Source: Vulcanimicrobiota bacterium
GTDB lineage: Bacteria > Vulcanimicrobiota > Vulcanimicrobiia > Vulcanimicrobiales > Vulcanimicrobiaceae
Assembly: GCA_027307235.1 (NCBI GenBank)
Contig: DAHUXH010000013.1
Span: forward strand, 62,001 to 126,000
Length of the DNA stretch: 64,000 bases
Direction: 5' to 3'
Both the position numbers and the translations under genes were made by a program. Within the stretch, counting starts at the first letter, position 1, and every line of letters starts with the position of its first letter. This document shows, in pieces, positions 9,351 through 40,910 of the stretch. The notes under the pieces are model-generated. The model searched no databases, was not told the DNA's origin, and worked only from the letters and a program-made list of their open reading frames with translations.

Positions 9351-10592
9351 ATGAGCGCCCCGGTTCCTATCAATGTCGGTAATACGGCATTCATGCTTAT
9401 CTGTGCGAGCCTCGTCATGCTCATGACGCCCGGGCTCGCATTTTTTTACGGCGGTTTGGTGGGGCGCAAGAACGTCCTGACCATTATGATCCAGAGCTTC
9501 ATGTCGCTCGGTTGGACCACCGTTCTGTGGTTCGCGTTCGGCTACTCGATGTGTTTCGGACCGACGTGGCACGGGATCGTCGGGAACCCGATGACCTTCG
9601 CGTTCTTGCACGGCGTGAGCTTGCAGACCATGTTCACCGGCAACGATGCCGGGATTCCGTTGCTGGTTCATATCGCGTACCAAATGATGTTCGCGATCAT
9701 CACGCCTGCGCTGATCACGGGTGCGTTCGCCAATCGCGTCACTTTTAAGGCATACTTCCTGTTTCTGACCGGCTGGCTCATCTTCGTGTACTTCCCGTTC
9801 GTCCACATGATTTGGAGCCCCGACGGTATCCTGGCACAATGGGGCGTGCTCGATTTCGCCGGAGGACTGGTGGTACACGCCTCCGCGGGTTTCGCGGCGC
9901 TTGCGTCGGTGCTGTACATCGGACGCCGCGCGGTCGTCGAGAACAAGCCGCACAACGTTCCGTTGATTGCGCTCGGGACCGGATTGCTGTGGTTTGGATG
10001 GTATGGGTTCAACGCGGGTTCTGAACTGCGCGTCGATGCGGTCACTGCGGCGGCGTTCCTCAACACCGATGTCGCCGCGTCGTTTGCAGCGGTGGCATGG
10101 CTGCTGATCGAGTGGACCAACGGCCGTCAACCGAAATTCGTCGGACTGTTGACCGGGGCCGTGGCGGGCTTGGCAACGATCACGCCGGCGGCCGGATATG
10201 TCTCTCCGGTGACCGCCGTCATCATCGGCATCGCTGCCGGAGCCGTCTGCTACTATGCCGTTGCACTCAAGAACCGCTTGGGGTGGGACGATGCGCTCGA
10301 CGTGTGGGGAGTTCACGGGGTCGGCGGCTGCTTGGGGATCGTTCTCCTCGGCGTGTTCGCATCGAAGGCATGGAATCCCAATGGCGCCGACGGGTTGTTG
10401 TTGGGGGGCACCGCGTTCTTCGTCAAACAAGTCGCGGCCGTCGTTATCTGCAGCGTGTGGGCATTTGTTTTCACCTACGGCATGCTGCGCCTGATCGACT
10501 TCGTCACACCGACCAAGGTCGATCGAGAGGCTGAGGAAGCGGGGCTCGACATAGCCCTCCACGGCGAAGAAGCCTACCCCCTCGGGATATAG
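9351..10592 (+). CDS. amtB: ammonium transporter
   Basis: 413 residues with eleven hydrophobic segments. It carries the two pore histidines of Amt channels, in DFAGGLVVHASAG and DVWGVHGVGG. The ATG at 9351 has GGGAGG upstream; the longer frame from 9264 lacks support. It imports ammonium across the inner membrane. No glnK/PII gene adjoins it in this window. The TAG stop (10590-10592) shares its last two bases with the left end of the palindromic repeat array. Confidence 0.96.
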   Translation: MSAPVPINVGNTAFMLICASLVMLMTPGLAFFYGGLVGRKNVLTIMIQSFMSLGWTTVLWFAFGYSMCFGPTWHGIVGNPMTFAFLHGVSLQTMFTGNDAGIPLLVHIAYQMMFAIITPALITGAFANRVTFKAYFLFLTGWLIFVYFPFVHMIWSPDGILAQWGVLDFAGGLVVHASAGFAALASVLYIGRRAVVENKPHNVPLIALGTGLLWFGWYGFNAGSELRVDAVTAAAFLNTDVAASFAAVAWLLIEWTNGRQPKFVGLLTGAVAGLATITPAAGYVSPVTAVIIGIAAGAVCYYAVALKNRLGWDDALDVWGVHGVGGCLGIVLLGVFASKAWNPNGADGLLLGGTAFFVKQVAAVVICSVWAFVFTYGMLRLIDFVTPTKVDREAEEAGLDIALHGEEAYPLGI

Positions 10593-10866
10593 GAAGCCTG
10601 ATTTCCGCCATGCCTTCGTTGCGGAGAGGCTCGTGTACCGTAGTACACTGCGCCTCTCCGCGCCTCGGCCTGGCGAAAATCAGGCTTCCTATGCGGGACC
10701 CTTCGTTGCGGAGAGGCTCGTGTACCGTAGTACACTGCGCCTCTCCGCGCCTCGGCCTGGCGAAAATCAGGCTTCCTATGCGGGACCCTTCGTTGCGGAG
10801 AGGCTCGTGTACCGTAGTACACGTCGCCTCTCCGCGCCTCGGCCTGGCGAAAATCAGGACTTCCTA
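10591..10866 (+). repeat. tandem array of three palindromic units, 87-bp period
   Basis: Three direct copies start their shared CCTTCGTTGCGG block at 10613, 10700 and 10787. Each unit nests hairpins: outer arms of 20 bases (AGGAAGCCTGATTTcCGCCA against its complement, one mismatch), a middle stem GCGGAGAGGC/GCCTCTCCGC, and a core GTGTAC-cgta-GTACAC. The third unit differs slightly (ACGTCGCC for ACTGCGCC, and an inserted A in the last arm). The array fills the gap between amtB and the TM2 gene. The open frames across it are by-products of the repeat. Related single copies lie at 14289-14396 and 40803-40910. Confidence 0.95.
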
Positions 10867-10922
10867 GGCTGGTGAAACATGGCTGGCTTCTTGGGTGTAG
10901 GGGATGGTGAAGGAGAATCCAC

Positions 10923-11321
10923 ATGACACCCTATGTGCAGATGTTGGCCGGTCGGATGCGTCCCGAGGCGCAGGGCGCCTTCAGCTACGACTACAGCAGA
11001 TTCGCGAAAGACCCGGCGGTTGCGTTTGCCCTCACGCTGGTCTTTGGGATCGTCGGCGGTGAGTCGTACTACGTCGGTGACTACAAGCGAGGTATCCTGA
11101 TGACGCTCGGGCTTCTGAGCGGCATCGGTCTCTTCATCACGGTGCCGATGTGGATCACGCGATGCTGCACGATCGTTGGCGAGTGCGAAGCGTACAACGA
11201 TCACCTTGCATATGCCCTTGCGTGGCAGTACGGCGCGGCCGATGGACCGGCCCCGCAGCCGCCGGCGCCGAGCGCACGCCCGACCATTGGTGGCCTGCCG
11301 ATGCGCGCCCCCGCCCGCTAG
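10923..11321 (+). CDS. TM2 domain-containing protein
   Basis: 132 residues. After ~25 polar residues come two transmembrane helices joined by a short GD-containing turn (residues ~30-80), the TM2 pattern, then a Pro-rich cytoplasmic tail. GAAGGAG lies upstream of the ATG. TM2 proteins are small membrane proteins of mostly unknown role. Its promoter must lie in, or read through, the repeat array that precedes it. Confidence 0.8.
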   Translation: MTPYVQMLAGRMRPEAQGAFSYDYSRFAKDPAVAFALTLVFGIVGGESYYVGDYKRGILMTLGLLSGIGLFITVPMWITRCCTIVGECEAYNDHLAYALAWQYGAADGPAPQPPAPSARPTIGGLPMRAPAR

Positions 11322-11352
11322 GCTCGCTTCAGAAGAGAACGCTTTCCGTCAG

Positions 11353-11381
11353 GCGTGGGCCAAGGAGTCTTTGGCCCGCGC
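11353..11381 (+). terminator. GC-rich hairpin after the TM2 gene
   Basis: GCGTGGGCCAAG is followed by a short loop and CTTTGGCCCGCGC, an almost perfect stem 32 bases past the TM2 stop codon. No T-run follows, so it is not a classical intrinsic terminator. It could also be a 3' stabilising hairpin. Confidence 0.4.
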
Positions 11382-11453
11382 CTGCGAGAACGTGACGTTC
11401 GAAACCTCGCCCGTCGCGAGGCAACAAGCCGCAGTTGTCGGGAGGACTAAGGC

Positions 11454-14222
11454 TTGCCGGATACGCGCACCAGAATCATTGAACACCTGCAAGCGGCCTC
11501 CGCGCCGTTTGCATGTTTCATTGCGCCGGCGGGGTATGGCAAGACGTATTTGGCGCACGCCTATGCGGCGACGTTTGCGCGCTCGGTGAACGTCGAGGCT
11601 CAGGGTGGAATGGCGGCCGCCGACGTTCTTCACGAGGTGGTCACGGGTCTGGATGCCATTTCCGCGTCTTGGGATCGCGACGGCCAGGCGACCTGCATCG
11701 TGCTCGACGCCGTCGAGCGATTGGACGACGCGGCCTTGGAAGAGGTGCTCGACGCGATGGTGCGGCTACGGCCCTCCAACGGCGCGGTCGTCGTGTGCAC
11801 TCGCCGGGAACCGCTCGCATTCAAGCTCTCCGATTGCATCGAACCGCATCTGCTGGTCGTCTTCCGGCGCGACGACATCGCGTTGACGCTCGAAGAACTC
11901 AAGGCGAAGGTTTCCCCGGGAGCACTCGACGCGAAGACCTTCTATGCGATTCACTATCTGACGCTGGGTTGGCCGGTCGTAGCGCTCTATGTCGTGCGCG
12001 CGGCGGTGCGCGGCGCGTTCGAACAAGATCCGCTGCGCATAGGGCATCCGGCACTCAACGACATTCTGGACTGGATCGACACCAACGCGATGCGCACGCT
12101 CCCGGCGGAGCTGCGCGACATGCTCATCTATTGCATTGCCTGCGGTGACGTCAGACCTTCCGACTTCGATGAGCTGTATGCCGAAAACAATGCCCGTCCC
12201 GATATCATGCTCTGTCGCAACGCGCAGCGTGCCGACATCGGCTTCACCGGCGAGATTCGCGTGCATCCGATGCTCCGGTTCTTTATTCACGCGCGGTACG
12301 CGTCGGATCTCGAACTCGAAGCGCGCAGCGCCGCGCGCGACTTGCTCGACCAGGGCAACCCGGTCCGTGCCGCGCGCGCGCTCCTCACGATCGGGGATTT
12401 CAAAGGTGCTGCGGATATTCTTGATGCCGTCGAGTTCGAGAAAGCGATGGAGTGCGGGAGCTACGCCTATCCGGGCATGACGCTTGAGTTCTTCAATCCC
12501 ATCAAGCCGCCGTACGCGCTCTATCCGATGCTGTGGCTCAGTCTGATCCCGTGTCGCCGTTACGTCGAATCACCGTCGGTGCTGGCGCGCGAAGGCGCGG
12601 ACATCTTGGAATTGCACGTCACGAAGACGTCGGCACGCGCTCGTCTGTGGATCGTGGCGTCGGTGTCGATGCTCTTCGCCGAAGGCGGCGATCTCGAGTC
12701 GGCGCGGCGCTATCGGGAGCAACTCGATCGGATGGAGCCGACCGGCGAGAGCGATGACCTTGAACTCGAGACCGTGCGCGAGATCGCGAGCATGTACCTG
12801 GACATCCAGCGCGGGCAGTTCGTGTCGGCGCGCGATCGGTGGCGTAAGAACGGTCCGCGATTGGCACGATACCCGACCTTGTATGCGCTGCATCTGCGGG
12901 TTGCCATGCGGATCGCGACGGCGACCGGTGAGTATGCCTCGGGCGAAGAGCCGCTGCGGATGCTGTTGTCGTTTTCGCATCTGGGAGGATGTGCGTCGCT
13001 CGCGGCTTCGGGCGGACTGGAAGCGACATTCGTCGCCTGGCTCAAGAACGATGAGGCGAACTTCACGCTTCAGCGCAGCGAATTCGCTCGGCTGGTGCGC
13101 AGCTACGACGTCCCCGCCCTGTGGCGGTGCTTGGCGGCCTTCTTCGGGAACGATCTGCATCCGGGCATGCCGGCGGATCCCTTCGCCGACGCGCGTGCGG
13201 TCTTGATCCTCGCAGTCGACTGCGAAGACGAACGTTCCGTGCACTTGGCGCAACGGGTGGTGGACATCTCCAGAGACGCTTGGAACCCGGTGGTGCGTAT
13301 CGGGGCGCGCATGGTCGGGTATCTTCGCGAGCTACCCGGCCGTGAAGCGCTGCTGCGCGAAGCGGTCGAGATCGCACAGGCCACCGACTCCGAGCGCATT
13401 CGCGCGGCGGTGTCGGCGTTTGTCGACGGCGAACCCGGCTTTGACGTCATTCGGCGTCTGCGCGATCGCATGGCGCGCACGCAGCTTCAAGCGCCAGCCC
13501 CGCCGCCGCAGACCTCTCAAGCGATCATCATCGATCTTGCGAGCGGCGAAGTCTCGCGTGCCGGAAGCCGTGTGCGCGTTTCGGAAGGTACGCTCGAACT
13601 CTTGGCGTTGCTCGCGGTGCGCGCCCATCCGGTCAAGCGTGAGGTGTTGGTCGATCGCCTGTGGCCCGACCTCGACGCGGTCAGCGCCAACAACGCATTG
13701 AAGATGTGCGTTCGGCGCGCGCGTCTGCAACTGGGCACCGCGGATGCGATCGTGACGAGTCAGAGCGCCTATTGCCTGGGAAGTGCCGCTGTCTCGACGT
13801 TCGAGCGTATCACCGCGCTCGGACAGGCAACCTTCGATCTACCATTGAGCGACGGGCAACGTTCCGAACTCGCCGACACCTTCGCGCGTTTGCTGCGAGG
13901 TCAGCGCTCGGGCTGGGCGCCATGGGAATGGTTCGTTTCGATCGGCCGCCAGTTGCTCGAAGCGATGCGTCACATCGGTGCGCACCTGATTGCCGATGCC
14001 TGCGAGCGCGGCGAGTTTCAGCGCGCGCTGCTGGTCGCTCGCGAGATGGCCGAAGTCGACCCGATCGATGAATATGCGCGCACCCGCATCATCCAGGTCT
14101 ATCTCAAGATGAACAACTGGGGCTCGGCCGTGCAAGAATTTCGCGAATACAGCGCCCTGCTCAAACGCGAACTCGGCGAAGAACCCTCCGAAGAACTCCG
14201 CCGCCTAGTCGACGCCTGCTAA
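11454..14222 (+). CDS. ATPase/BTAD-domain transcriptional regulator
   Basis: 922 residues. The N-terminus is a STAND-type ATPase with Walker A PAGYGKT (residues 25-31) and a Walker B-like IVLDAVERL near residue 85. The middle is helical, probably TPR-like. From ~690 comes an OmpR-like winged helix (GTLELLALLAVRAHPV, LVDRLWPDL), and the last ~100 residues form a BTAD domain (EYARTRIIQVYLKMNNWGSAV). This is the MalT/AfsR/EmbR-like layout, except that the DNA-binding domain precedes BTAD near the C-terminus. A TTG start is used, with GGGAGG upstream. The inducer and targets are unknown. Confidence 0.85.
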   Translation: MPDTRTRIIEHLQAASAPFACFIAPAGYGKTYLAHAYAATFARSVNVEAQGGMAAADVLHEVVTGLDAISASWDRDGQATCIVLDAVERLDDAALEEVLDAMVRLRPSNGAVVVCTRREPLAFKLSDCIEPHLLVVFRRDDIALTLEELKAKVSPGALDAKTFYAIHYLTLGWPVVALYVVRAAVRGAFEQDPLRIGHPALNDILDWIDTNAMRTLPAELRDMLIYCIACGDVRPSDFDELYAENNARPDIMLCRNAQRADIGFTGEIRVHPMLRFFIHARYASDLELEARSAARDLLDQGNPVRAARALLTIGDFKGAADILDAVEFEKAMECGSYAYPGMTLEFFNPIKPPYALYPMLWLSLIPCRRYVESPSVLAREGADILELHVTKTSARARLWIVASVSMLFAEGGDLESARRYREQLDRMEPTGESDDLELETVREIASMYLDIQRGQFVSARDRWRKNGPRLARYPTLYALHLRVAMRIATATGEYASGEEPLRMLLSFSHLGGCASLAASGGLEATFVAWLKNDEANFTLQRSEFARLVRSYDVPALWRCLAAFFGNDLHPGMPADPFADARAVLILAVDCEDERSVHLAQRVVDISRDAWNPVVRIGARMVGYLRELPGREALLREAVEIAQATDSERIRAAVSAFVDGEPGFDVIRRLRDRMARTQLQAPAPPPQTSQAIIIDLASGEVSRAGSRVRVSEGTLELLALLAVRAHPVKREVLVDRLWPDLDAVSANNALKMCVRRARLQLGTADAIVTSQSAYCLGSAAVSTFERITALGQATFDLPLSDGQRSELADTFARLLRGQRSGWAPWEWFVSIGRQLLEAMRHIGAHLIADACERGEFQRALLVAREMAEVDPIDEYARTRIIQVYLKMNNWGSAVQEFREYSALLKRELGEEPSEELRRLVDAC

Positions 14223-14246
14223 TTCACACTTTCCTACCCCCGCCGT

Positions 14247-14287
14247 ACGTAGGAAGCTCTCAGGCACGTCAGGCCAAGGGCGAAAAT
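14247..14287 (+). repeat. partial copy of the palindromic repeat
   Basis: TACGTAGGAAG, CTCTCAGGC and CGTCAGGCC, then GGCGAAAATA, reproduce pieces of the repeat's left arm and of its other arm with the core missing. It sits directly before the full copy, which begins with the same TACGTAGGAAG. It looks like a deleted tandem unit. Confidence 0.7.
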
Positions 14288-14288
14288 A

Positions 14289-14396
14289 CGTAGGAAGGTC
14301 TCAGGCGCGTCAGGCCGAGGCGCGGAGAGCCGAAGTGTACTAAGGTACACGAGGCTTTTCGCAACGACGGCCTGGCGCGCCTGAGACCTTCCTACG
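14289..14396 (-). repeat. palindromic repeat, single full copy, inverted orientation
   Basis: 108 bp. Outer arms beginning CGTAGGAAGGTCTCAGGCGCG match perfectly over 21 bases. The middle stem is GCGGAGAGCC/GGCTTTTCGC, and the core is GTGTAC-taag-GTACAC with GGTACAC. By core sequence it is the reverse complement of the 10.6- and 40.8-kb copies. The end at 14396 overlaps the TAG stop (14394-14392) of the minus-strand lipoprotein gene. It lies between convergent genes. Confidence 0.93.
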
Positions 14397-14937
14397 CTCC
14401 GGTGGCGATGTAGAATTCGTAACTGCCCGCATTCAGTGTGGTTGCGCCGGCGGGGATGGTGAGGTAGCTGTTGACGATGCCGCCGGGGCCGGTGATGACG
14501 GTGGCGGGCACGATCGTGAGCGAACTCCAGTCGGCTTGCGCGACGGCGACCACGTAGAAGAAGCCGGCCGGATTTCCAATCGTGCTCCACACCGTGCAGC
14601 CGACCGCGACCGAGGCGGCTGAGACCGTCGCCGTCAGCGTCGTCGTTGTGGAGAACTGCATCGCTGAATTCGCCGGCACGCCGTTGCACGCGTGAATGCC
14701 GCCTTGCGGTCCGAGTACGATTTCGCTGCCGGCCAGGCTCGAATGCAAGGGATACAGTAAGCGATAGCTCGTGCAGTTCATGCAGTGCCCTGCGAACGCC
14801 GAGTATCCGGCATGCGCGCCCGGTGCGCTCAGCGGCGTCATCGGCGGTAGGGAGTGTGTGGATCCCCCGCAACCGGCCAAAGCGATCGCGGTCAGTAGTG
14901 AGAGGGCACCAACCAGGCGTGAGAAGGGCATGAACAT
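14392..14937 (-). CDS. putative lipoprotein, unknown function
   Basis: 181 residues with a lipoprotein signal (LAGC, Cys23), then a low-complexity linker and a beta-rich domain. The second half has repeated Thr/Ala-rich strands (GIVNSYLTIPAG), like small secreted Eremiobacterota-type proteins. AAGGAG precedes the ATG by 4 bases; an in-frame ATG two codons on is an alternative start. The TAG stop lies inside the palindromic repeat. No function is recognised. Confidence 0.65.
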   Translation of the reverse strand: MFMPFSRLVGALSLLTAIALAGCGGSTHSLPPMTPLSAPGAHAGYSAFAGHCMNCTSYRLLYPLHSSLAGSEIVLGPQGGIHACNGVPANSAMQFSTTTTLTATVSAASVAVGCTVWSTIGNPAGFFYVVAVAQADWSSLTIVPATVITGPGGIVNSYLTIPAGATTLNAGSYEFYIATGA

Positions 14938-14957
14938 AGCGCTCCTTGCAGTGGGTG

Positions 14958-15428
14958 TTAGCAGTATGCGGGGGTAGGCGGTTTGGCCGCTACAGCAATG
15001 CGGCCGACATCGGTGGACGTGCGGCGCGCGGTAGCGCTGCGTTTGCGGCTCGCGCGGCGATCGAGCCAGGCGGTCGTGCTGTGCAGGCGATCGAGACTGT
15101 CGTCGATGGCACGCAGCGCGACGTCATCGCGTCCGTCCAAGAACGCCGTCTCGATGCTGCGAGCGATGTCGATCAATTGACGCGCTCCGACGGTGCGTGC
15201 GCCTTCGGTGAGATGGTCGCATTGAAAGACGACGTCGCGCTCGGCATGCGTGTGAATGGCGCCGGCGAGCGCGTGGAGCGTCTTGATCGCATCCGGGAGC
15301 CAGACCGAGCGCACGAAGCGATACGCGGATTCGAGATTGCCCTCGAAGTACTCGGCGAGCCGGTGAACGTCAGAGGCCACGAACGGCAGAGCGATCGTTC
15401 TGTTGAAGCCGGGCCGCATGTAGACCAT
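14958..15428 (-). CDS. Hpt-like histidine phosphotransfer protein
   Basis: 156 residues, all helical up to ~125, then a basic, probably disordered tail. CDHLTEGARTVGARQL at residues 70-85 matches the Hpt pattern (His, x, Leu, then GA and a following Leu), with His72 as the candidate phosphoacceptor. A paired downstream helix (IETAFLDG) fits the same fold. It could relay phosphate from the histidine kinase at 17.6 kb, but nothing in the sequence proves the pairing. It lies 20 bp upstream of the lipoprotein gene on the same strand. Confidence 0.55.
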   Translation of the reverse strand: MVYMRPGFNRTIALPFVASDVHRLAEYFEGNLESAYRFVRSVWLPDAIKTLHALAGAIHTHAERDVVFQCDHLTEGARTVGARQLIDIARSIETAFLDGRDDVALRAIDDSLDRLHSTTAWLDRRASRKRSATARRTSTDVGRIAVAAKPPTPAYC

Positions 15429-15625
15429 GATGACGTTCTCTCCCCGTGAGTGTCCGCCGGACCGTCTGGCAGTCCGACTACGTTGAGGTTAACGCCTGGA
15501 GGGGGACAAACTCGGGTACGCCGTCCGGCAACATCGGGAACTCCGGGCGGACACCATGGTGTTACCGCCGGTTCCACCGCAGCGGCAAAGGAGGCGCGCC
15601 GTCGGCCGCTAAAGAGCGCGGCGTG

Positions 15626-16597
15626 ATGATGCGACGGGTGGTGGTGCTTGCCTTGGTCAGCGCGCTTGCGGGCTGCGGCTCTTCCTCTTCGTCGCCCGCC
15701 CCGGGACCGGGGACTCCGGCCGGCGGGGGAGGCGTATCGAGCAGTTCCTTGGTCATCTGTCCGGCCGCGGCGACCATCTCCATTCCGCCGGTCGGCACGC
15801 TCTCTTCGATCCAAATCGTGTTGCCCGCCGCGAGCGTCTCCGGCTGCGTCCCGGTGACCGCGGCAGCCAGCGTCACAGCTCCTTCGACGACCGCCTCGGC
15901 CGCGCGCGGCCTTCGCACGCAGAGCGCGGCGCCGTCGTCGGCACTGTTCTATCTCTCCGTGACCCCGAGTGCCGACGTCTCGCTTGCGGGGTTCCCGGGC
16001 TTTCAAGTGAGCCGTCCGGCCGGGTTTCCCGCCGGCGTGCAGTATTTCGGGGCGCTCTTCGATCCGACGGCCGGACAGTGGACGCTCGCGGAAGTCGGGC
16101 CCGGCACGATTCAAAATGGCTTGACGCTCGTCATTGTTCCGGGCTCGGGTAATCTGAAGCTCCTCGCGGGCAAGCAGTACACCTTCGCGATCTACGCGGT
16201 CACGAGCGCTGGAAGCACTCCGACGCCGCCGCCGGGCTCGACGCCGACACCGCCGCCGGGCTCGACCCCGACGCCGCCGCCGGGCCCGACTCCGACGCCG
16301 ACCCCAACGCCGACGCCGGTGCCGGGATCAGTCATGGTGAACCCGGGAACGCTGAGCTTCATCACCACCGGCGCGGCTGCGGCCCAAACGGCCACCGTTT
16401 CGCAGAACCCATCGTCCGGGGCGATCATTGAAAGCGATACCTGCAGCGGCATCGCCACCGTCGGCCCGCCGTCAAGCGGCGTCTACACGATCACGCCGGT
16501 GGGCGCGGGGACCTGCACCGCGACGTTCACGCCCCCGAGCGGGGCGCCCGGGACACTGCACATCTCGGTGACGACGACCTCCTTCGGCGTTCAATAG
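15626..16597 (+). CDS. lipoprotein with Pro/Thr-rich spacer, unknown function
   Basis: 323 residues from the first of two adjacent ATGs. The lipobox is ALAGC (Cys17), followed by a Ser/Pro/Gly-rich linker and a beta-rich domain. Residues ~205-235 hold three TPTPPPGS-type repeats leading into a TPTPTPTP run. A last ~80-residue domain has paired Cys (DTCSG, GTCTA), resembling a bacterial Ig-like fold. The frame is open upstream to 15446, but that part lacks protein character. The 197 bases before it hold only a distant AAAGGAGG at 15587. Confidence 0.65.
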   Translation: MMRRVVVLALVSALAGCGSSSSSPAPGPGTPAGGGGVSSSSLVICPAAATISIPPVGTLSSIQIVLPAASVSGCVPVTAAASVTAPSTTASAARGLRTQSAAPSSALFYLSVTPSADVSLAGFPGFQVSRPAGFPAGVQYFGALFDPTAGQWTLAEVGPGTIQNGLTLVIVPGSGNLKLLAGKQYTFAIYAVTSAGSTPTPPPGSTPTPPPGSTPTPPPGPTPTPTPTPTPVPGSVMVNPGTLSFITTGAAAAQTATVSQNPSSGAIIESDTCSGIATVGPPSSGVYTITPVGAGTCTATFTPPSGAPGTLHISVTTTSFGVQ

Positions 16598-16601
16598 GCC
16601 G

Positions 16602-17480
16602 TCACTCGGCGCGCCATCGTCTCCAAAACCGCCTGCCCGCCCGTGCGGTGATCTGCCAAGCGCGCCGCCAGCGTCGCCGTGCCCGATCGCGCGTCTCCGT
16701 TTCCAAACGCGCAAGCTCGCCCGCAACGAACGCCGTAGGGCCGCCCGCCGCGCTAGCACGCAGCCGCTGCCGCTCCACGACCGCGTCGTGCAGTTCGCCT
16801 AGCAGATCTTGCAACTCGACCAAGCGTCGCTGAAAGCGGCCCGAGCGCGCTCGCAGGACCGGCGCGACCGCCTCGAGCCCGTAACGGAATCTCTTGGCAC
16901 GGATACGCAGGACATGCAACTCGTCGTCGCTCGGATTGCTCCCCAATTTCCGTGTGGTTTTCTTCACGCGGCGCCACGCCCGGCGCACCTCGTCGATCAG
17001 CACCGTGACCGCGCCCGACCCCGCCTCGGGTACGAGCGCCGGGGTATGCGCGGCTGCCGTCAACCGGGCAAGCAACGCGGTGTAGCGCGGCTCGTCCATG
17101 GCTGCGCGCAGGCGGCGCTGCGCCTCGGCGCGGGCGGCCGCGATGCCGGCGCACATGACGCCGGTCTGCGCACGGTCCTGCGCCGGAAGGCGGCAGGCCA
17201 GCGACGCGATGTGCGCCAGCAGCACATCTGCGTCGCGAACGGGAGCCAACAGATCCGCCAGCCAGCGTAACTCAGCGCGCGTCTCTCGTACCCAGACCGG
17301 GTCGAAGAACGATGCGAACACACGAAGGTCGCTGCGCAGCCGGCGCACGGCCACGCGTGAGGAATGGACCCATTCCGGGTCCTCGTCGCGGCGAAGGTGC
17401 GGATCGGCCTCGAACAGAGCCCGTGTCGTGCGACCGATCGCATCCCGAACCACTTCGGCCAAGGTGGCGGTCGCGGGCAC
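16602..17480 (-). CDS. CHAD domain-containing protein
   Basis: 292 residues spanning a full CHAD domain: VHSSRVAVRRLRSDLRVF near residue 40, and LRIRAKRFRYGLEAV near residue 195. Both helical repeats are rich in conserved His, Arg and Lys that bind polyphosphate in this family. The tail is strongly basic. There is no CYTH partner. A GTG start is used. It is divergent from the histidine kinase, with 127 bp between them that hold no recognisable motif. Confidence 0.9.
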   Translation of the reverse strand: MPATATLAEVVRDAIGRTTRALFEADPHLRRDEDPEWVHSSRVAVRRLRSDLRVFASFFDPVWVRETRAELRWLADLLAPVRDADVLLAHIASLACRLPAQDRAQTGVMCAGIAAARAEAQRRLRAAMDEPRYTALLARLTAAAHTPALVPEAGSGAVTVLIDEVRRAWRRVKKTTRKLGSNPSDDELHVLRIRAKRFRYGLEAVAPVLRARSGRFQRRLVELQDLLGELHDAVVERQRLRASAAGGPTAFVAGELARLETETRDRARRRWRRAWQITARAGRRFWRRWRAE

Positions 17481-17607
17481 GATGCCCTACGCATTCTCGG
17501 ACCGGATCGATTCTCCGGCGGTGCGCGGCCGGTACGTCGCGTTAAGATTGGGCACGGGCTGAAAACGTTCGCCGGGAGTGTGGGTGTGCGAGCGATAACT
17601 CGTTCCC

Positions 17608-19545: not shown

Positions 19546-19985
19546 TGAAAAAAGCGTACATTCTGCTCATCGAGGACAACCCCGACGACGTCGAATTGAC
19601 CAAGCGGGCGTTCGCCAAGAACCACATCGTCAACGACATCGTCGTCCTGAGCGACGGTGCGCTCGCGGCCGACTATCTGTTCGAGGGCGGGCGCGGTGAG
19701 CGCGGGCTGCCGCAGTTCATCCTGTTGGACTTGAAGCTGCCGAAAATCTCGGGCCTCGAACTGCTCGAACGGATTCGCAAACACCCCGAGACGCAGCTCT
19801 TGCCGACGGTGATCCTCACCTCGAGCAAGCAAGACGAAGACCTTATGGCCGGGTACCGCTTGGGCGTGAACAGCTACGTGCGCAAGCCGGTCGATTTCAA
19901 TGAGTTCGTCGACGCGGTGCGGCAAGTCGGGCTCTACTGGCTCATGCTCAACGAACCACCGCCGGATGGAAGTTTCGAGGTCTGA
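19542..19985 (+). CDS. Rcp1-like single-domain response regulator
   Basis: 147 residues, a lone receiver. Acidic pocket ED at 11-12, phosphoacceptor Asp63 in LLDLKLPK, Ser/Thr at TSS (93-95) and Lys115 in RKPVDF. The tail QVGLYWLMLNEPP is diagnostic of the Rcp1 family that partners cytosolic PAS/phytochrome kinases. The start overlaps the kinase stop, which implies translational coupling. Confidence 0.95.
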   Translation: MMKKAYILLIEDNPDDVELTKRAFAKNHIVNDIVVLSDGALAADYLFEGGRGERGLPQFILLDLKLPKISGLELLERIRKHPETQLLPTVILTSSKQDEDLMAGYRLGVNSYVRKPVDFNEFVDAVRQVGLYWLMLNEPPPDGSFEV

Positions 19986-19991
19986 CTAACG

Positions 19992-22085: not shown

Positions 22086-22091
22086 AGGAGG

Positions 22092-22373: not shown

Positions 22374-22446
22374 GCCGGCTTCGACGGGACGCGCAACGCG
22401 CCCCACGGTATGGGCCAACGGGAGGTGTGTCGAATGACCCGGCACC

Positions 22447-22752: not shown

Positions 22753-22802
22753 TCGCGGTACGTGGAAACGATCGCATCGGCGGGGACGTTGAACGTGTGA
22801 CC

Positions 22803-23147: not shown

Positions 23148-23152
23148 CCTTC

Positions 23153-24136: not shown

Positions 24137-24137
24137 C

Positions 24138-31133: not shown

Positions 31134-31142
31134 CGGCGCCGC

Positions 31143-31534
31143 TCAGCGCGGCTGACAGAGCTCGATCAGGACGCCGCCCGTGCTCTTGGGGTGGATGAAG
31201 GCGATGCGGTTGCCATGCGCGCCGTCGCGCGGATGCTGATCGATCATGCGCACGCCGTTCGCGGTGAGCTGCGCGATCTTCGCTTCTATGTCGTCAACGC
31301 GGTAAGCGGTGTGGTGCAACTTCGTCGGCGCGTCGCCGCGAAATTTCGCGATCGGCGACTCTTCGTCGAGCGGGCGCAACAACTCGATGATGGAATCACC
31401 GGCACGTAGTCCCACCACCTCGACACCCTGGTCGGCGATCGTCTCGCGATAGACCTGATCGAAGCCGAGCGTGTTCGTATAGAGAGCGATCGTCGCTTCC
31501 AGGTCTTTGACGACGATGGCGACGTGGTCGATGG

Positions 31535-31538
<4 letters not shown>
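31143..31538 (-). CDS. mce: methylmalonyl-CoA epimerase
   Basis: 131 residues, a single VOC (glyoxalase-like) fold opening [14 protein letters not shown]. Candidate metal ligands are His in IDHVAI, His in LHHTAYRV and Glu in GVLIELCQP. It interconverts the methylmalonyl-CoA epimers in propionate metabolism. The ATG at 31538 overlaps the mutase stop by 4 bp. It is the last gene of the minus-strand operon. Confidence 0.94.
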
Positions 31539-33112
<1,574 letters not shown>

Positions 33113-33158
33113 GATCTCCCCGCCTTAACCTCCGAACAATCCCGCTCCTGTACGTTTG

Positions 33159-34901
33159 CTAGCCGATCGTGACGAGCGGCGCGCCGGCTTCGACGGTATC
33201 GCCGAGGCTGACGTGAACGCGCTCGATGCTGCCGGCCTTATGCGCGCGAATCTCGTTCATCATCTTCATCGCCTCGACGACTGCGACGACCTCGCCGTGC
33301 TCGACGGTCGCGCCGGCGATTGCTTTCATCTCGACCACGACGCCGTGCAGCGGTGAAAGTACGTCATTTCCGGCTGCGGCAACGTTGTGTTTCTTTGCGC
33401 CGGCGCGTGGAGCGGGTCGTGCCGGCGCACGTCCCGCGCTCGCCGGACGATCGAGAACGCGGACGCGGAACAGCCGGTCGTTCACCTCGATGCGCAACAA
33501 TTCCGAGGCGACCGGTGCGGGCGCGGCGGGCGGCGCGGTGATGCCGTCGCTCGGATGCGCAAAGAGCGATGCGGCGAACGTCTCGAGTGTCGCGGTGCCG
33601 TAGGACGCATCGCGCACCGGTTCGTGGTCGCAGAGGGCACGCAGCAGCGGCAGCGTCGTCGGTACGCCTTCGATGACGAATTCGTCGATCGCGCGGCGCA
33701 GACGTGCAATCGCTTGATCGCGCGTCGGCGCCCACACCACGAGCTTAGCAATCATCGAATCGTAGTCGGGTGAGATGGTGGAACCCGCGCATGCGGCTGA
33801 ATCGACGCGCACACCGAGTCCGGCCGGTTCGCGGTACGCGGTGATCGTGCCCGGCGCCGGCCGAAAGTTTTGCGAAGGATCCTCCGCGTTCACGCGGCCT
33901 TCGATGGCGAAGCCGCGCAAGACGATCTGATCCTGCGTGATCCCGAGCGGTTCACCGGCGGCGACGCGAATCTGTTCGCGAATCAGATCGATGCCGGCGA
34001 TCATCTCGCTCACCGTGTGCTCGACTTGAATGCGCGTGTTCATCTCGAGAAAGAAGAAGTCGTCCCCAGAGACCAGGCATTCGATGGTGCCGACCGAGTC
34101 ATAACCGATCGCTTGCGCGGCGCGAATGCCGGCTTCTCGCATGCCGGTGCGAACGTGTTCGGAGATACGCGCCGGTGTCTCTTCCCAGAGTTTTTGATGG
34201 CGCCGCTGTAACGAGCAGTCACGTTCGCCGACGTGCAGCACGGTGCCGTGCTTGTCGGCGAGAATCTGTAACTCGACGTGCTTGGGGTTGTCGAGGTAGC
34301 GTTCGGCGTAGATGGTGCCGTTCTTGAAATAGGCCTCGGCTTCGCGTTTGGCGGTGGTGAACGCCGATTCGATGTCGTCGAGCGAACGCGCGACCTTCAA
34401 GCCTTTGCCGCCGCCGCCGCCCGACGCCTTGAGCGCGAGCGGCAACCCGTACGTCTGCGCCGCTTCGCGCGCCGCCGCGACGTCGTCGATGGCGTGGGTT
34501 CCGCCCGGCACGAAGGGAACGTTCGCGAGCTGCATCGCCTGACGCGCGCGCAGCTTGTCGCCCATCGCGTCGATGGCGTCGGGATGCGGTCCGATCCACG
34601 TCAGTCCAGCGCCGATCACGGCGCGTGCGAAGGCTGCGTTCTCGGCGAGAAAACCGTAGCCGGGGTGTATCGCGTCGGCGCCGGAACGCCGGGCCGCATC
34701 GAGAATCTTCTCGACGTCGAGATAGCTCTGCGCGGCGGCGGCGGGTCCGACCAGATAGGCTTCGCCGGCCATGCGCACGTGCATCGCGTCGCGATCGGGC
34801 TCGCTGTAGACGGCAACCGTCGCGATGCCCATCTCGCGCGCCGTGCGAAGAACGCGCACCGCGATCTCGCCGCGGTTCGCGATCAAGATTTTCGAGATCA
34901 T
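33159..34901 (-). CDS. acyl-CoA (acetyl/propionyl-CoA) carboxylase alpha subunit, BC-BCCP fusion
   Basis: 580 residues. Biotin carboxylase domain at 1-450 with the ATP-grasp loop GGGGGKG (161-167), then a Pro/Ala linker and a C-terminal biotin carrier domain. The biotinyl lysine is Lys546 in EAMKMMNE. This is the fused alpha chain found in actinobacterial-type carboxylases. The start overlaps the 51-residue epsilon gene (ATGA). The mutase gene follows after 46 bp, which points to propionyl-CoA as one substrate. Confidence 0.95.
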   Translation of the reverse strand: MISKILIANRGEIAVRVLRTAREMGIATVAVYSEPDRDAMHVRMAGEAYLVGPAAAAQSYLDVEKILDAARRSGADAIHPGYGFLAENAAFARAVIGAGLTWIGPHPDAIDAMGDKLRARQAMQLANVPFVPGGTHAIDDVAAAREAAQTYGLPLALKASGGGGGKGLKVARSLDDIESAFTTAKREAEAYFKNGTIYAERYLDNPKHVELQILADKHGTVLHVGERDCSLQRRHQKLWEETPARISEHVRTGMREAGIRAAQAIGYDSVGTIECLVSGDDFFFLEMNTRIQVEHTVSEMIAGIDLIREQIRVAAGEPLGITQDQIVLRGFAIEGRVNAEDPSQNFRPAPGTITAYREPAGLGVRVDSAACAGSTISPDYDSMIAKLVVWAPTRDQAIARLRRAIDEFVIEGVPTTLPLLRALCDHEPVRDASYGTATLETFAASLFAHPSDGITAPPAAPAPVASELLRIEVNDRLFRVRVLDRPASAGRAPARPAPRAGAKKHNVAAAGNDVLSPLHGVVVEMKAIAGATVEHGEVVAVVEAMKMMNEIRAHKAGSIERVHVSLGDTVEAGAPLVTIG

Positions 34902-35053
34902 GCGTCGATCGACTCGATTCGCGCGGCGCGATGCCAGTTGGACGTCGCCGCCACTGCGCTGACAGGTGTGGTGTCTTCGAGGATGACGGCGAGCGCGGCG
35001 GCGATCGCTGCCGCCTCGTCGCCTGTTGGCGGCGCGTTCTCGAAGACAATCAT
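34898..35053 (-). CDS. accE: probable acyl-CoA carboxylase epsilon subunit (51 residues)
   Basis: An ATG at 35053 opens a 51-codon frame that shares bases with the fabI stop (ATGA) and with the carboxylase alpha start (ATGA). The layout is that of AccE/PccE: a short N-terminal strand (MIVFENAPPT), a helix rich in Glu and Ala (GDEAAAIAAALAVI), a variable linker, then NWHRAARIES. In actinobacteria this small subunit joins the carboxyltransferase to the alpha subunit. It is too short for most gene callers. Confidence 0.72.
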   Translation of the reverse strand: MIVFENAPPTGDEAAAIAAALAVILEDTTPVSAVAATSNWHRAARIESIDA

Positions 35054-35835
35054 AGCGTTACATCCGGCGGGTACATACCCATGGCGTGATAACCTGCGTC
35101 GACGAAGTGCACGTCGGCGGTGATCGTCGAGGCAAGCGCGGAGGTCAGGTAGACGGCCACGTTGCCGACGTCCTCGATCGTGATGTTGCGCTTGAGCGGC
35201 GCGACCTTCGGAACGATCTCGAGGATCTTCGAGAAGCCGCCGACCTGGCGTGAACTCGCGGTCTTGATCGGACCCGCGGAGATGGCGTTGACGCGGATGC
35301 CGCGCTCGCCCAGGTCGAACGCCAGATAGCGGACGATCGATTCGAGGGCCGCCTTCGCGATGCCGGCCAGATTGTAGTTGGGAACGATCTGGGTCGCGCC
35401 GAGGTACGTCATCGCGAGCACACTCGCGCCGTCGTTGAGCGTTTCGCGCAGCGTCTGCACGAGCGCGATCAGAGAATACGACGAGACGTCCATCGAGAGT
35501 TTGAATCCGTCACGCGGAATTTCGTAGACCTTGCCGCTCAAACTGGCCTTGTCGACGAAGGCGATCGAATGCACCAGGCCGTCGAGCTTACCGTGCGCTG
35601 CCAGCGCGTCGCGCATTGCCGCGAGCGAAGCGTCCGACGAAACGTCGCATTCGATCACCGGTCCGCCGCCCAGTTCCGCCGCGATCTCCTCGACCGACGC
35701 CTTCACACGTTCGCCTTGATAGGTGAACGCGAGCTGCGCTCCGTGCTCGTGCATCTTGCGGGCGATGCCGGCGGCGATCGACCAACGATTGGCAACGCCG
35801 GTCACGAGGATACGTTTGCCTTCCAAGAGTTTCAC
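35050..35835 (-). CDS. fabI: enoyl-[acyl-carrier-protein] reductase (NADH)
   Basis: 261 residues. TGVANRWSIAAGIA near residue 12 is the FabI dinucleotide loop. Catalytic Tyr144/Tyr154 and Lys161 lie in the Y-x6-K pattern NYNLAGIAK, and the SAGPIKT block follows. It completes each fatty acid elongation cycle. Its stop overlaps the epsilon subunit gene, so fatty acid reduction and acyl-CoA carboxylation are encoded in one operon. It is divergent from the YciI gene at 35930. Confidence 0.96.
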   Translation of the reverse strand: MKLLEGKRILVTGVANRWSIAAGIARKMHEHGAQLAFTYQGERVKASVEEIAAELGGGPVIECDVSSDASLAAMRDALAAHGKLDGLVHSIAFVDKASLSGKVYEIPRDGFKLSMDVSSYSLIALVQTLRETLNDGASVLAMTYLGATQIVPNYNLAGIAKAALESIVRYLAFDLGERGIRVNAISAGPIKTASSRQVGGFSKILEIVPKVAPLKRNITIEDVGNVAVYLTSALASTITADVHFVDAGYHAMGMYPPDVTL

Positions 35836-35929
35836 GGCAGCCTAGGTACGTGGCAAGGTCGCGGCGTCCTCTGTGGACCGGTCCGGCTCGACGGGTGGCC
35901 GGGTAGTGTGGCGGCGAATAGGCGGCGCG

Positions 35930-36196
35930 ATGTTTGTCTTGCTTTCGAACTATCTCGCACCGCTCAATGAAGTCGACCGCGTCGTCGGCGAGCACCGCGC
36001 CTATCTCGACCGGTTCTACGCGAGCGGCGACCTCGTCGTCTCCGGCCCGCAGGACCCGCGCGTCGGCGGGGTCATCATCGCGCGCTTCGCGTCGCGCGCG
36101 CAGGTCGATACCTTTCTCGCCGGCGATCCGTTCGTGCGCGACGGCATCGCGCACTACCAAATCTTCGAATTCACCCCAACGCGCGGGTCTATCTGA
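35930..36196 (+). CDS. YciI-like protein
   Basis: 88 residues starting MFVLLSNYL. HRAYLDRFYASGDLVVSGP and DPFVRDGIAHYQIFEF are typical of the stand-alone YCII fold, in which a His and an Asp line a small active site. E. coli YciI is the family reference, with no settled substrate. It is convergent with pccB and divergent from fabI. The ORF is open to 35873, but family similarity begins at this ATG. Confidence 0.85.
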   Translation: MFVLLSNYLAPLNEVDRVVGEHRAYLDRFYASGDLVVSGPQDPRVGGVIIARFASRAQVDTFLAGDPFVRDGIAHYQIFEFTPTRGSI

Positions 36197-36203
36197 GTTT
36201 CGA

Positions 36204-37757
36204 TTACAACGGGATGTTGCCGTGTTTGCGCTTGGGGCGCTCGACGCGTTTGTCGCGCAGCATCTCAAGTGCGGTCGCGACGACGCGCCGGGTGTGGCGC
36301 GCCTCGATAACTTCATCCACGTAGCCGCGCTGCGCGGCGATGTAGGGGTTGGCGAAGCGTTCGGTATAGTCGTCGATGAGCGAGCGCATCTTCGCGTCTT
36401 TGTCGGAAGCGGCGGCGATCTCGCGGCGGAAGATCGTTTTGACCGCGCCTTCGGCGCCCATCACGGCGATCTCGGCCGTCGGCCACGCGACATTGACGTC
36501 GGCACGGATGTGTTTGCTCGCCATGACGTCGTACGCGCCGCCGTACGCCTTGCGCGTGATCACCGTGATTTTGGGAACGGTCGCCTCCGCGAACGCGTAG
36601 AGCAGCTTCGCTCCGTGCATGATGATGCCGCCGTATTCTTGATCGGTTCCGGGCAGGAAGCCGGGAACGTCGACGAACGTGAGCAGCGGGATGTTGAAGG
36701 CATCGCAGCAGCGCACGAAGCGGGCCGCCTTGATCGACGACGAGATGTCGAGCACGCCGGCCAGCACGTTCGGCTGATTGGCGACGACGCCGACGCTCTG
36801 CCCGTCGATACGCCCGAATCCGCAGATGATGTTCTGGGCGTAGAGCGGCTGAATCTCAAAGAAATCACCGTTGTCGAGCACCGCACCGACGACGTCGTGC
36901 ATGTCATAGGGCTTGTTCGGCGAGTCGGGCACGACGTCGTCGAGCTCGGGGATGTCGCGTCGCGGATCGTCGTCGCACGCAAAGCGCGGCGGATCGTCGA
37001 GGTTGTTCTGCGGGAGATACGAGAGCAGCGTGCGCGCGGTCTGCGTCATCTCGTCCTCGTCCGCGGCGACCAGATGCGCAACGCCGCTCTTGGTCGCGTG
37101 CGTGTGCGCACCACCGAGTTCTTCGAAGCTCACGTCTTCGCCGGTGACTGTCTTGATGATCTCGGGACCGGTGATGAACATCTGCGAGATGCCCTCGGTC
37201 ATGATGATGAAATCCGTGATCGCCGGGGAGTACACGGCGCCGCCCGCGCAGGGACCGGCGATCAAGCTGATCTGCGGAATCACGCCGCTTGCCTGCACGT
37301 TGCGCCAGAAGATCTCGGCGTATCCGCCTAACGAGACGACACCCTCTTGAATGCGCGCTCCGCCGGAGTCGTTGATGCCGATCACCGGCGATCCGGTCCG
37401 CAGCGCGAGGTCCATCACCTTGCAGATCTTCTCGGCGAAGACTTCGCCGAGCGACCCGCCGAGCACCGTGAAATCTTGCGAGAACAAAAAGACTTGCCGT
37501 CCGTCGATGGTCGCGCGCCCGGTCACGACCCCGTCGCCGAGAAATTCTTTTTCATCCAAACCGAACGCGCTGGTGCGATGCACCGCGAATCGATCGAGTT
37601 CGGTGAACGAACCGGGATCGACCAGCGCCTCGATGCGCTCGCGCGCCGTGCGTTTCCCGCGCGCGTGCTGCTTGTCGACGGCGTCGTCGCCCGCCGGCGC
37701 CAACGAGCGCTCGCGCTGGCGGCGCAATTCGGCGTATTTCTCCTCGTGCGTTCTCAT
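36204..37757 (-). CDS. pccB: acyl-CoA carboxylase beta (carboxyltransferase) subunit
   Basis: 517 residues, the fused N- and C-terminal carboxyltransferase halves of PccB/AccD5. [15 protein letters not shown] (~130) and the second oxyanion region [14 protein letters not shown] (~395) are intact, and the C-terminus reads [14 protein letters not shown]. With the alpha and epsilon genes at 33-35 kb it should form a propionyl/acetyl-CoA carboxylase. The YciI gene separates it from that operon. It follows the DUF59 gene on the same strand by 88 bp. Confidence 0.95.
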
Positions 37758-37845
37758 GCCGCCCCCATTGCGCGCCGCTCGCAGCGCGGCCCTCTTTACG
37801 CCGCGGCGACCGCAGCGCGCGATTGGCGTAGCGTCATCAGCGACG

Positions 37846-38157
37846 TTACCAGATGCCGAGCATCACCTTGACGTCGTCACTGGCCATCGTCTTGGGGTCC
37901 CAGGGAGGCGAGAAGGTGATCTCGGCCTTCGCCGTCTCCACACCCTCGACGGCCTTGACGTGATCCTCCACGGACTGTTTAAACATGGGGCCGACCGGGC
38001 ACATCGGAGAGGTCAGCGTCATGACGACGGTCACGTGCTCGCCGCGCTCGCCTTCCACGACGACGTCGTACACGAGACCGAGGTCCAGGATCCCGAGGTT
38101 CAACTCGGGGTCCTTGACGTCGGCGAGGGCTTGGCGGATTTGCTCTGTGCTGGGCAT
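37846..38157 (-). CDS. DUF59/MIP18 family Fe-S assembly-type protein
   Basis: 103 residues from the ATG at 38157, preceded by [22 protein letters not shown] and [11 protein letters not shown] with its conserved Cys are the SufT/PaaD/MIP18 signatures. Members help mature Fe-S proteins or, as PaaD, an oxygenase. No suf or paa genes are nearby. It is upstream of pccB and likely co-transcribed. Confidence 0.92.
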
Positions 38158-38305
38158 GGTCACCTCATCTTACACCGTTCGCCCAAGCGCCACGGCCACC
38201 AAGGGCGCAAGAGTCCCGGGGCGCTCGCCCCTGACGCAACCTATGCCGACAGATTAAGGTAGAACGATACGAGGGTTGCACGGCAGCCGAGGGAAGAGAC
38301 CAACT

Positions 38306-40801
38306 ATGTCGATGTGGGAACCGTTTACCGAGCGCGCGCGGCGCAGCATCGTGCTGGCGCAAGAAGAAGCCCAACGTCTCGGCAACAACTATATTGGTAC
38401 CGAGCACATCCTCTTGGGCATCATCTCCGAAGGCGAGAGCCTCGCGGCGAAGGTCCTGGAATCGCTCGGCGTCAACCTCGGCAAAGTCCGCCAAGAGGTC
38501 GAGGCCATCGTCGGCCGCGGCGGTCAGACCGTTCAGCAGGAGATGGTCTTCACGCCGCGCGCCAAACGCGTGATCGAACTCGCTTTCGAAGAGGCGCGCC
38601 AACTCAATCACAACTACATCGGCACCGAGCACCTGCTGCTCGGCTTGATTCGCGAAGGCGAAGGCGTCGCGGCGCGCGTGTTGACCAATCTCGGCGTCGA
38701 TCCCGCCAAGGTGCGCGTGCAGACGACCTCCTTGCTCGGGGCCGAAGGGCAGCCGCCCGCTCCCAAGGGGAAGAGCAAGACCCCGACGCTCGATGCGTAC
38801 GGCCGCGATCTCACGCAGCTAGCACGCGAAGGCAAGCTCGATCCGGTCATCGGACGCGCCAACGAGATCGAGCGCGTCATTCAAATTCTCTCGCGGCGCA
38901 CGAAGAACAACCCCGCGCTGATCGGCGAGCCCGGCGTCGGCAAGACGGCGATCGCCGAAGGCTTGGCGCAGCGCGTCATCAAGGGCGACATTCCCGAACC
39001 ATTGCGCGACCGCAGGGTGATCACGCTCGATCTCGCGGGGCTGGTCGCCGGAACCAAGTATCGCGGCGAGTTTGAAGAGCGCATGAAGCGCGTGATGGAC
39101 GAGATCCGCACGGCGGCCGGTGAGATCATCCTGTTCATCGACGAATTGCACACGCTGGTCGGCGCAGGCGCGGCGGAGGGCGCGATCGACGCAAGCAACA
39201 TCATTAAGCCGGCATTGGCGCGCGGCGAATTGCAGTGCATCGGCGCGACGACGCTCAACGAATTCCGCAAGCACATCGAGAAAGACTCCGCGCTCGAACG
39301 CCGCTTTCAGCCGGTGATGGTCGGCGAGCCGTCGATTGAAGAGACCATCGAGATACTCAAAGGCCTGCGCGATCGCTACGAAGCGCATCATAAGGTGCGC
39401 ATCACCGACGAGGCGCTCTCCGCGGCGGCGAAACTCGGCGACCGGTACATCACCGATCGCTTCTTGCCGGACAAAGCCGTCGATCTGATCGACGAGGCCA
39501 GTTCGCGCGTGCGCTTGCAAGCGACGCTTCCACCCAAAGAGATTCGGGACGTCGAAGCCGAGTTGCGTAAAGTGATCGCCGAGAAAGAGGCGGTCGTCAA
39601 GGGACAAGAGTTCGAAAAAGCGGCGTCGATTCGCGATCGTGAAGAGAAGCTGCGCGCGGAGAAGACCAAGCTCGATCAAGAGTGGCAAGCGCGACGCGCG
39701 CTCAGCGACGCGGTCGTCAAGGTCACGGCCGAGCACATCGCTGAGATCGTGTCGTCGTGGACGAAAATTCCGGTCAGCCGCCTCGCCCAGGCTGAGACCG
39801 AGAAGCTGCTCAACATGAAGGAAGCGCTGCACACGCGCGTGGTCGGACAAGACGAGGCGATCGAAGTCATCACGCGCGCCATCCGGCGCTCGCGCGCGGG
39901 CTTGAAGAATCCGAACCGGCCGATCGGCTCGTTCATCTTCCTCGGACCGACCGGCGTCGGAAAGACCGAAGTCGCGCGCAGCGTCGCGATGTTCTTGTTT
40001 GACGACGACGAGTCGATGATTCGCATCGACATGTCGGAGTACATGGAGAAGTACTCGGTGAGCCGCCTGGTCGGCGCACCTCCGGGTTACGTCGGCTACG
40101 AAGAAGGCGGTCAACTCACCGAAGCGGTGCGGCGCCGGCCGTACTCCGTGGTGCTGCTCGACGAGATCGAAAAGGCGCATCCCGACGTCTTCAATCTGTT
40201 GCTGCAAGTGCTCGACGATGGCCGTTTGACGGATTCGCAAGGCCGCCACGTCGATTTCAAGAACACCGTTATCATCATGACCTCGAACGTCGGTGCCACC
40301 GGCATGCAGACGACGACCGACATCGGCTTCCGGCCGCAGAAGACGCTGGAAGAAGATGAATCCAAGACCTACGAGCGGATGAAAAACAAGGTGCTGGAAG
40401 AGGTCAAGCACACGTTCCGGCCCGAGTTCCTCAATCGCGTCGACGAAGTGGTCGTCTTCCACCAATTGACGCGCGAACAGATCGAGGAAATCGTCGGTCT
40501 CGAACTCGAGAAAGTCCGGCGCGAAGTCAAAGCGCAAGAGATGGAACTCAAAGTTACCGACGCCGCCAAGGTGGTGCTCGCCAAGAAGGGCTGGGATCCG
40601 CAGTTCGGCGCGCGTCCGCTGCGCCGCGCGATTCAGCGCATGGTCGAGGACGAGATCGCCGAGGAGATGCTGCGCGGGATCTTCGGACCGGGCGATCACA
40701 TCTTGTGCGACGTCGCTCCCGACGATCCCGAGAAGCTGAAGTTCAGCAAGATCCCCTCACTAGAGCCTCCCGCGGTCCCCTCGGAAGTCGCGACAACCTA
40801 G
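38306..40801 (+). CDS. clpC: ATP-dependent Clp protease ATPase subunit ClpC
   Basis: 831 residues. Two Clp_N repeats (1-150), AAA+ 1 with Walker A GEPGVGKT (207-214), a middle domain with coiled-coil at ~400-470, and AAA+ 2 with Walker A GPTGVGKT (547-554). The pore loop motif [13 protein letters not shown] is present. It unfolds substrates for ClpP and acts with adaptors in stress response. The ATG at 38306 follows a GAGGGAAGAG stretch. I see no mcsA/mcsB/ctsR genes upstream. A palindromic repeat follows its TAG stop by 1 base. Confidence 0.97.
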
Positions 40802-40802
40802 G

Positions 40803-40910
40803 CTAGGGAAACTCTGATTTCCGCCAGGCCGTCGTTGCGGAGAGGCTCGTGTACCGTAGTACACTTCGCCTCTCCGCGCCTCGGCCTGACGAAAATCAGC
40901 GCTTCCCTAG
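40803..40910 (+). repeat. palindromic repeat, single copy after clpC
   Basis: 108 bp. Outer ends CTAGGGAA/TTCCCTAG, inner arm CTGATTTcCG/CGaAAATCAG, then CAGGCCG/CGGCCTG, the middle stem GCGGAGAGGC/GCCTCTCCGC and core GTGTAC-cgta-GTACAC. Same orientation as the 10.6-kb array. It lies between clpC and a convergent minus-strand gene. Confidence 0.94.

Follow-up and report, generated by a model that had tools for sequence, protein, structure and literature searches.

A nested hairpin at three loci of the window

The window analysed here is a 64-kb stretch of contig DAHUXH010000013.1 from a Vulcanimicrobiota bacterium, whose 2.4-Mb genome we call G000. It carries a dispersed palindromic element, detected with a covariance model as three full 102-base hairpins and two tandem core repeats next to the first hairpin. 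A preliminary description of the window had reported a nested hairpin of five units shared by three loci. Sequence reading and the model confirmed this, the five units being the three full hairpins and the two tandem cores. The full hairpins were matched at E ~1e-27 at 10590-10691 (-), 14292-14393 (+) and 40806-40907 (-), where the strand given is the one that folds, termed the GAA strand. The first (104.9 bits with model R2; fold -78.4 kcal/mol) adjoins the stop codon of an ammonium-transporter gene (Pfam Ammonium_transp) ending at 10592 (+). Beside it, also on the - strand, lie the second unit at 10700-10755 (R2 54.7 bits; direct repeat D1, with 87-bp spacing) and the third at 10787-10842 (R2 56 bits), followed by a right arm that ends near 10866. 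The second full hairpin (R2 103 bits; fold -86.4 kcal/mol) adjoins the 3' end of a predicted gene at 14392-14841 (-), and sequence reading shows, at 14252-14288, part of a second copy of a left arm (AGGAAGCTCTCAGGCACGTCAGGCC...), from an element that is truncated or has been duplicated in part. The third (R2 103.4 bits; fold -78.7 kcal/mol) is flanked by a ClpC-like gene (Pfam Clp_N/AAA_2) ending at 40801 (+) and a convergent gene at 40943-42214 (-). ARAGORN also called a tRNA-Thr at 12293-12384, within a predicted BTAD-domain gene (11454-14222); this is probably a false positive.

Each full window copy folds with a z-score of -13 to -14 on its better strand relative to 200 dinucleotide shuffles (RNA energies). 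One strand folds better than its complement in every full copy; DNA energies were calculated for two copies. The complementary CTC strand folds strongly too, at -63 to -73 kcal/mol.

The element is ~102 bp long and has a shared core, read on the GAA strand in G000 as GAAGTGTAC. Its outer stem is ~25-27 bp (26-27 bp in G000), and beyond pair 27 pairing drops to the random level. An outer internal loop (RA/G/GC versus AA/C/GAM; GAGGC/AACGAM in G000) contains a tandem G.A. Further in, a middle stem of ~10 bp leads to a GAA/GA internal loop, which also has a tandem G.A; the apical stem has 6 bp and closes on a short loop of variable length. The tandem G.A is near-invariant in both internal loops, being present in 107 and 97 of 109 matches from genomes of the class, and a non-canonical pair is either C.A or A.G in all but 2 of the 109. 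The variable length of the apical loop rules out the binding site of a dimeric double-strand regulator.

Among the G000 copies the middle stem is nearly uniform, and outer pairs 18-27 are highly variable, still mostly paired. The outermost ~11 bp of the stem differ from site to site, yet the arms are complementary, and in some copies, such as the one at locus L148, whole arms have been swapped jointly. The window holds an example of such replacement. As the preliminary description claimed, the outer arms at 14.3 kb are replaced on both sides and still pair, and the middle stem there carries a compensated swap and two G-T pairs. These G-T pairs are real and lie on the + strand, but the strand on which they form wobbles is antisense to the host gene at 14392-14841 (-). 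At three G000 loci (L004, L012 and L022) the 5' half is partly duplicated in tandem, the duplication breaking exactly in the apical loop and restarting at the arm, a pattern that slippage of replication at a hairpin would produce. In L004 the partial duplicate, broken at the apex, precedes the full copy, and the arms overlap the last part of the coding sequence upstream.

Covariation and the folding strand

The 109 class matches contained 1309 cells changed on both sides of a pair, compared to 351 after shuffling, and gave a covariation score of 0.779 versus 0.196. The apical stem covaried too. The alignment of the 109 sequences was fitted to the model, and a structure-free test therefore carries more weight. 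In that test, the middle stem of 43 diverse sequences yielded 214 Watson-Crick cells compared to 118 in shuffled controls (maximum 140). A set of 21 diverse sequences gave 244 two-sided cells versus 96.6 shuffled, and sliding the partners abolished the signal.

The non-Watson-Crick cells of the stems were biased towards one strand. Read on the GAA strand, GT outnumbered AC by 300 to 52 in the class set, the orientation of which was chosen by the model, and by 32 to 11 in a set chosen without reference to structure. As judged from the sequences, this bias, the G.A motifs and the C.A/A.G pair form the signature of a structured single strand, which may be DNA or RNA. Covariation and G-U pairs alone do not prove an RNA. 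The outer arms, variable yet paired, suggest a DNA process in which arms are set at, or copied from, the site as much as they suggest base-by-base compensatory selection.

The preliminary description had taken the changes at 14.3 kb to argue for selection on an RNA structure and not just a mobile palindrome. The covariation is real on the scale of the family and the wobbles do prefer one strand, but an RNA is not proven and the strand that folds is antisense to the abutted gene. The second half of the claim fares similarly: the folded single strand is constrained, but the element is clearly dispersed and probably mobile. It is probably better read as a mobile palindrome with a constrained folded single strand.

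Gene 3' ends, orthologous sites and spread across bacteria

The apical pattern GTGTACN{2,6}GTACAC occurs at 73 places in G000 and the reversed pattern at none, which excludes chance. A blastn-type search recovered ~44 copies that were complete or nearly so. Regions around ~64 of the 73 sites were inspected, genes being called with a simple home-made codon-usage script. Not one of the 64 interrupted a gene or fell in a gap between divergent genes. Elements occupied 30 of 40 convergent gaps compared to 25 of 178 tandem gaps; the regions were picked around elements, which inflates both fractions, but the contrast holds.

Position and orientation follow one rule. Read in the CTC sense, the element begins at the 3' end of the preceding gene, at its stop codon or tRNA end, and the folding GAA strand is therefore antisense to the host gene. 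The foot lay within 15 nt of a gene end in 43 of 51 cases on the upstream-sense side in G000, compared to 13 of 40 on the other side. In 78 of 86 class loci outside G000 it was -17 to +13 nt from the end of the upstream sense gene, with a mode of -3 to +2. In other phyla, 28-47 nt typically separate the stop codon or tRNA end from the apical stem that follows. Eggerthellaceae have the gene end 79-89 nt before the apical stem, with an ordinary-looking terminator hairpin between, and Rheinheimera carries the element after tRNA-Ile within a ribosomal-RNA operon. Many copies lie between co-directional genes. Since the folding strand is antisense in these as well, ordinary transcription of the host gene yields the other strand. 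The genes near elements are housekeeping genes, and hosts include rpsD, tuf, clpC-like and tRNA genes. Neighbouring flanks are not conserved from copy to copy, and a run of four T within 15-20 nt of the hairpin was present in only 3 of 59 G000 copies.

The element persists at orthologous sites. It was found at the 3' end of rpsD in genera g9, g14, g16, g17, g19 and g29, most genera being without it, and copies thus placed lie within an operon (rpsD-rpoA). Between the rpsD elements of g14 and g17, nine pairs carry changes on both sides and three on one, and no pair is broken; the arm takes in the last codons and the stop of rpsD. Two genomes of one genus differ at this site: G120 has the element and G118 does not, the inner hairpin differing while the arms remain. 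In genus g24 a near-identical single copy is kept directly behind a stop codon. Long retention with compensation argues for selection or for arm-to-arm correction. As a separate observation, most genera of the class have another conserved sequence upstream of rpoA (~CCGCTAGGCGTACGATCG...GCGGATAACGTAAGCGG; L288-L345, for example L301 and L312), which resembles a structured mRNA leader; at six such loci it had no Rfam match at E<=1.

Beyond G000, model R1 matched 70 of 117 genomes of the class at E<=0.001 and ~58 at E<=1e-10, and no genome of family f3 was among the listed matches of this search. Related genera have fewer and more diverged copies than G000. R1 and R2 give ~35 bits to perfect palindromes without G.A loops, so matches up to ~40 bits are weak and the tallies at E<=0.001 are upper limits. 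One such palindrome, near-perfect over 97 bases, lies on a Fibrella contig (L088, 2755-2851) and serves as a negative control for palindrome models.

Further afield, 257 Gb of sequence were searched with an exact 18-base pattern with a variable loop, for which we estimate ~50 chance matches. Matches were retained only where they had paired flanks and the internal-loop motifs, and several inside genes were dropped as chance sites. The apical GTGTAC is invariant in this cross-phylum set only because the search pattern demanded it. The same anatomy was found in Alpha- and Gammaproteobacteria, desulfobacteria, Eggerthellaceae, Lentisphaeria, Endomicrobia, Patescibacteria, Clostridia and Cloacimonadota, and the hairpin family spans at least nine bacterial phyla. 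The carriers include isolates (Rheinheimera, Thiomicrorhabdus arctica and Adlercreutzia), and many are metagenome-assembled genomes (Rickettsiales, Enterousia, Desulfobulbaceae, Eggerthellaceae, Lentisphaeria, Endomicrobia, Patescibacteria, Clostridia and Cloacimonadota). Several of these genomes are rich in model matches: counting weak ones, there were 12 in Thiomicrorhabdus and 22 in one assembled Rickettsiales genome. Tandem arrays at ~190, 110 and 188 bp spacing occur behind tRNA or protein genes (L130, L087 from Lentisphaeria, L092 and L124). In two Enterousia genomes the element stands behind seemingly the same gene, at L107 (4686-4792; in tandem) and L111 (6987-7071), with stems that are largely different and paired.

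By blastn, a Rickettsiales copy had no match in E. coli genomes and a Thiomicrorhabdus copy none in plasmids. The single match in viral contigs lay within a gene and was judged to be chance. Rfam gave nothing above gathering score in the window, and at 20 loci from many phyla its only matches were to rRNA and tRNA, none being at the elements. This agrees with the earlier view that the hairpin fits no named family. We found no description of it in the open-licence literature, and the family is apparently undescribed so far.

Possible mobility, alternatives and related systems

We tentatively propose, at a little under an even chance, that the copies are a non-autonomous mobile element, mobilised in trans, recognised as a folded single strand and placed or retained at gene ends. 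The recognition unit would be one folded single strand, the GAA strand. A putative trans-acting enzyme would recognise the hairpin and place the element at the 3' end of a gene, at the stop codon or the mature tRNA end, which would leave the folding strand antisense to that gene. One outer arm would be made as a copy of the other, either when the element arrives or afterwards. Its presence at gene ends would be tolerated, and it may serve there as a strong 3' hairpin. Copy number and dispersal, the gene-end rule, covariation, GT bias, G.A motifs, outer-arm variation and the variable loop all count towards this proposal. The anatomy, the covariation, the preferred strand, the rule of position and orientation, the dispersal within genomes and the persistence at orthologous sites are established by the sequences; we infer mobilisation in trans, single-stranded DNA as the recognised form and the copying of arms.

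Several results weigh against mobility of this kind. No Y1 transposase (RAYT/TnpA-REP) was found in G000 by a search that detects it in control genomes, and reverse transcriptase (PF00078) is absent from G000 and present in 12 of the 117 class genomes. Their absence from this high-copy genome led us to reject both as the partner, and the housekeeping nature of the adjoining genes likewise disposes of a transposase among the neighbours. No clean insertion with target duplication was seen among the copies examined, and the only pair within a genus that differs in having the element, G120 and G118 at rpsD, looks like a deletion. Persistence at orthologous positions in different genera is as compatible with a host function as with a selfish element.

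The main rival is such a host function, a 3'-end RNA. The CTC-strand hairpin would act as a terminator lacking a U tract, possibly bidirectional, or as a block to 3' exonucleases; its pairing would be selected and dispersal would be secondary. We consider this possible but on balance unlikely. The foot of the element exactly at gene 3' ends, the strong enrichment of convergent gaps in G000, hosts such as rpsD, tuf, clpC-like and tRNA genes, the compensated and unbroken pairs at rpsD and the strong fold of the CTC strand all speak for it. However, the wobble bias and the G.A motifs are on the opposite strand, the U tract is missing, and a terminator would have no need of the conserved inner core. 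Copies within the rpsD-rpoA operon and in an rRNA spacer also speak against it, as does the separate terminator-like hairpin ahead of the element in Eggerthellaceae. The two explanations are compatible: the GAA strand could serve mobility, and the hairpin in the mRNA could make a copy tolerated or beneficial.

A family of antisense RNAs, in which the GAA strand would be transcribed into a structured RNA, for example one that binds protein or is antisense to gene 3' ends, appears improbable. It would account for the GT bias and the near-invariant purine loops of that strand and for the enrichment of convergent gaps, but the many copies between co-directional genes would each require their own GAA-strand promoter, and flanks are not conserved between copies. 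Least probable of all is a plain dispersed palindrome with a functionless folded strand, its arms kept complementary by template switching and arm correction during replication: the tandem duplications that break at the apex and the joint replacement of whole arms are typical of hairpin-driven replication errors, but this reading accounts neither for the unpaired G.A motifs and their conservation nor for the GT:AC bias, the single orientation in which elements meet gene ends or the core common to several phyla.

The closest known kind of element is ERIC (also IRU or RU-1), likewise a dispersed intergenic palindrome of ~100-130 bp to which no mobiliser has been assigned. The present element is ERIC-like in kind, but we do not file it as ERIC because similarity at the level of the models is indistinguishable from chance and its ends mostly lack the TA of ERIC. 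In a 5-kb E. coli locus the best model match was the ERIC, on the expected strand (14.7 bits, E 0.035), but chance palindromes equal or exceed the 14.7-15.7 bits that ERIC receives. At cusC, the single E. coli copy that was examined follows the end of the upstream gene under the same orientation rule. ERIC has TA ends and TA target duplications, whereas TA lies within 4 nt of both ends in just 30 of 102 elements here, and TA-targeted insertion was rejected on this count. The arms of ERIC are conserved, unlike the site-specific arms of the present element. De Gregorio and colleagues reportedly found in 2005 that ERIC takes one preferred orientation next to stop codons, a trait that the present elements share. 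The effect of ERIC on mRNA reportedly depends on its orientation (PMC2229807).

The REP and BIME sequences associated with RAYT (TnpA-REP) are also extragenic palindromes present in high copy, with recognition believed to involve one of their strands. REPs are 20-40 bp long and tag-based (PMC3733652). In contrast, the present element is ~102 bp, has a core common across phyla and a gene-end rule, and occurs in G000 without a Y1 transposase. Strong hairpins at gene 3' ends are shared with intrinsic terminators, but here the T tract is lacking, the inner motif is conserved and the element of Eggerthellaceae stands behind a terminator hairpin of ordinary appearance. The attC sites of integrons are single-strand hairpins on the antisense strand right behind a gene, with variable stems and unpaired recognition bases, and the present element resembles them in each of these respects. 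Unlike attC, it has no conserved outermost core site, its outermost pairs taking all Watson-Crick types, and it lies behind ordinary chromosomal and tRNA genes rather than cassettes.

Dispersed palindromes are usually described for single genomes and without a common core. This family has a single folded core and a single rule of position from Patescibacteria to Gammaproteobacteria. It brings an old question within reach of testing, namely what moves and maintains ERIC-like elements and why they lie near stop codons, and the near-invariant G.A loops offer a concrete ligand for a protein search. The covarying arms are also a caution against taking covariation in palindromic repeats as proof of RNA. 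More speculatively, and we think rather doubtfully, a bacteria-wide mobile system may append a recognisable single-strand hairpin to gene 3' ends; the strand it recognises would be antisense to the gene, and the outer arm would derive from the gene end by copying. If it exists, such a system would use mobilisation chemistry of a new kind and might illustrate how attC-like sites arrive directly behind genes.
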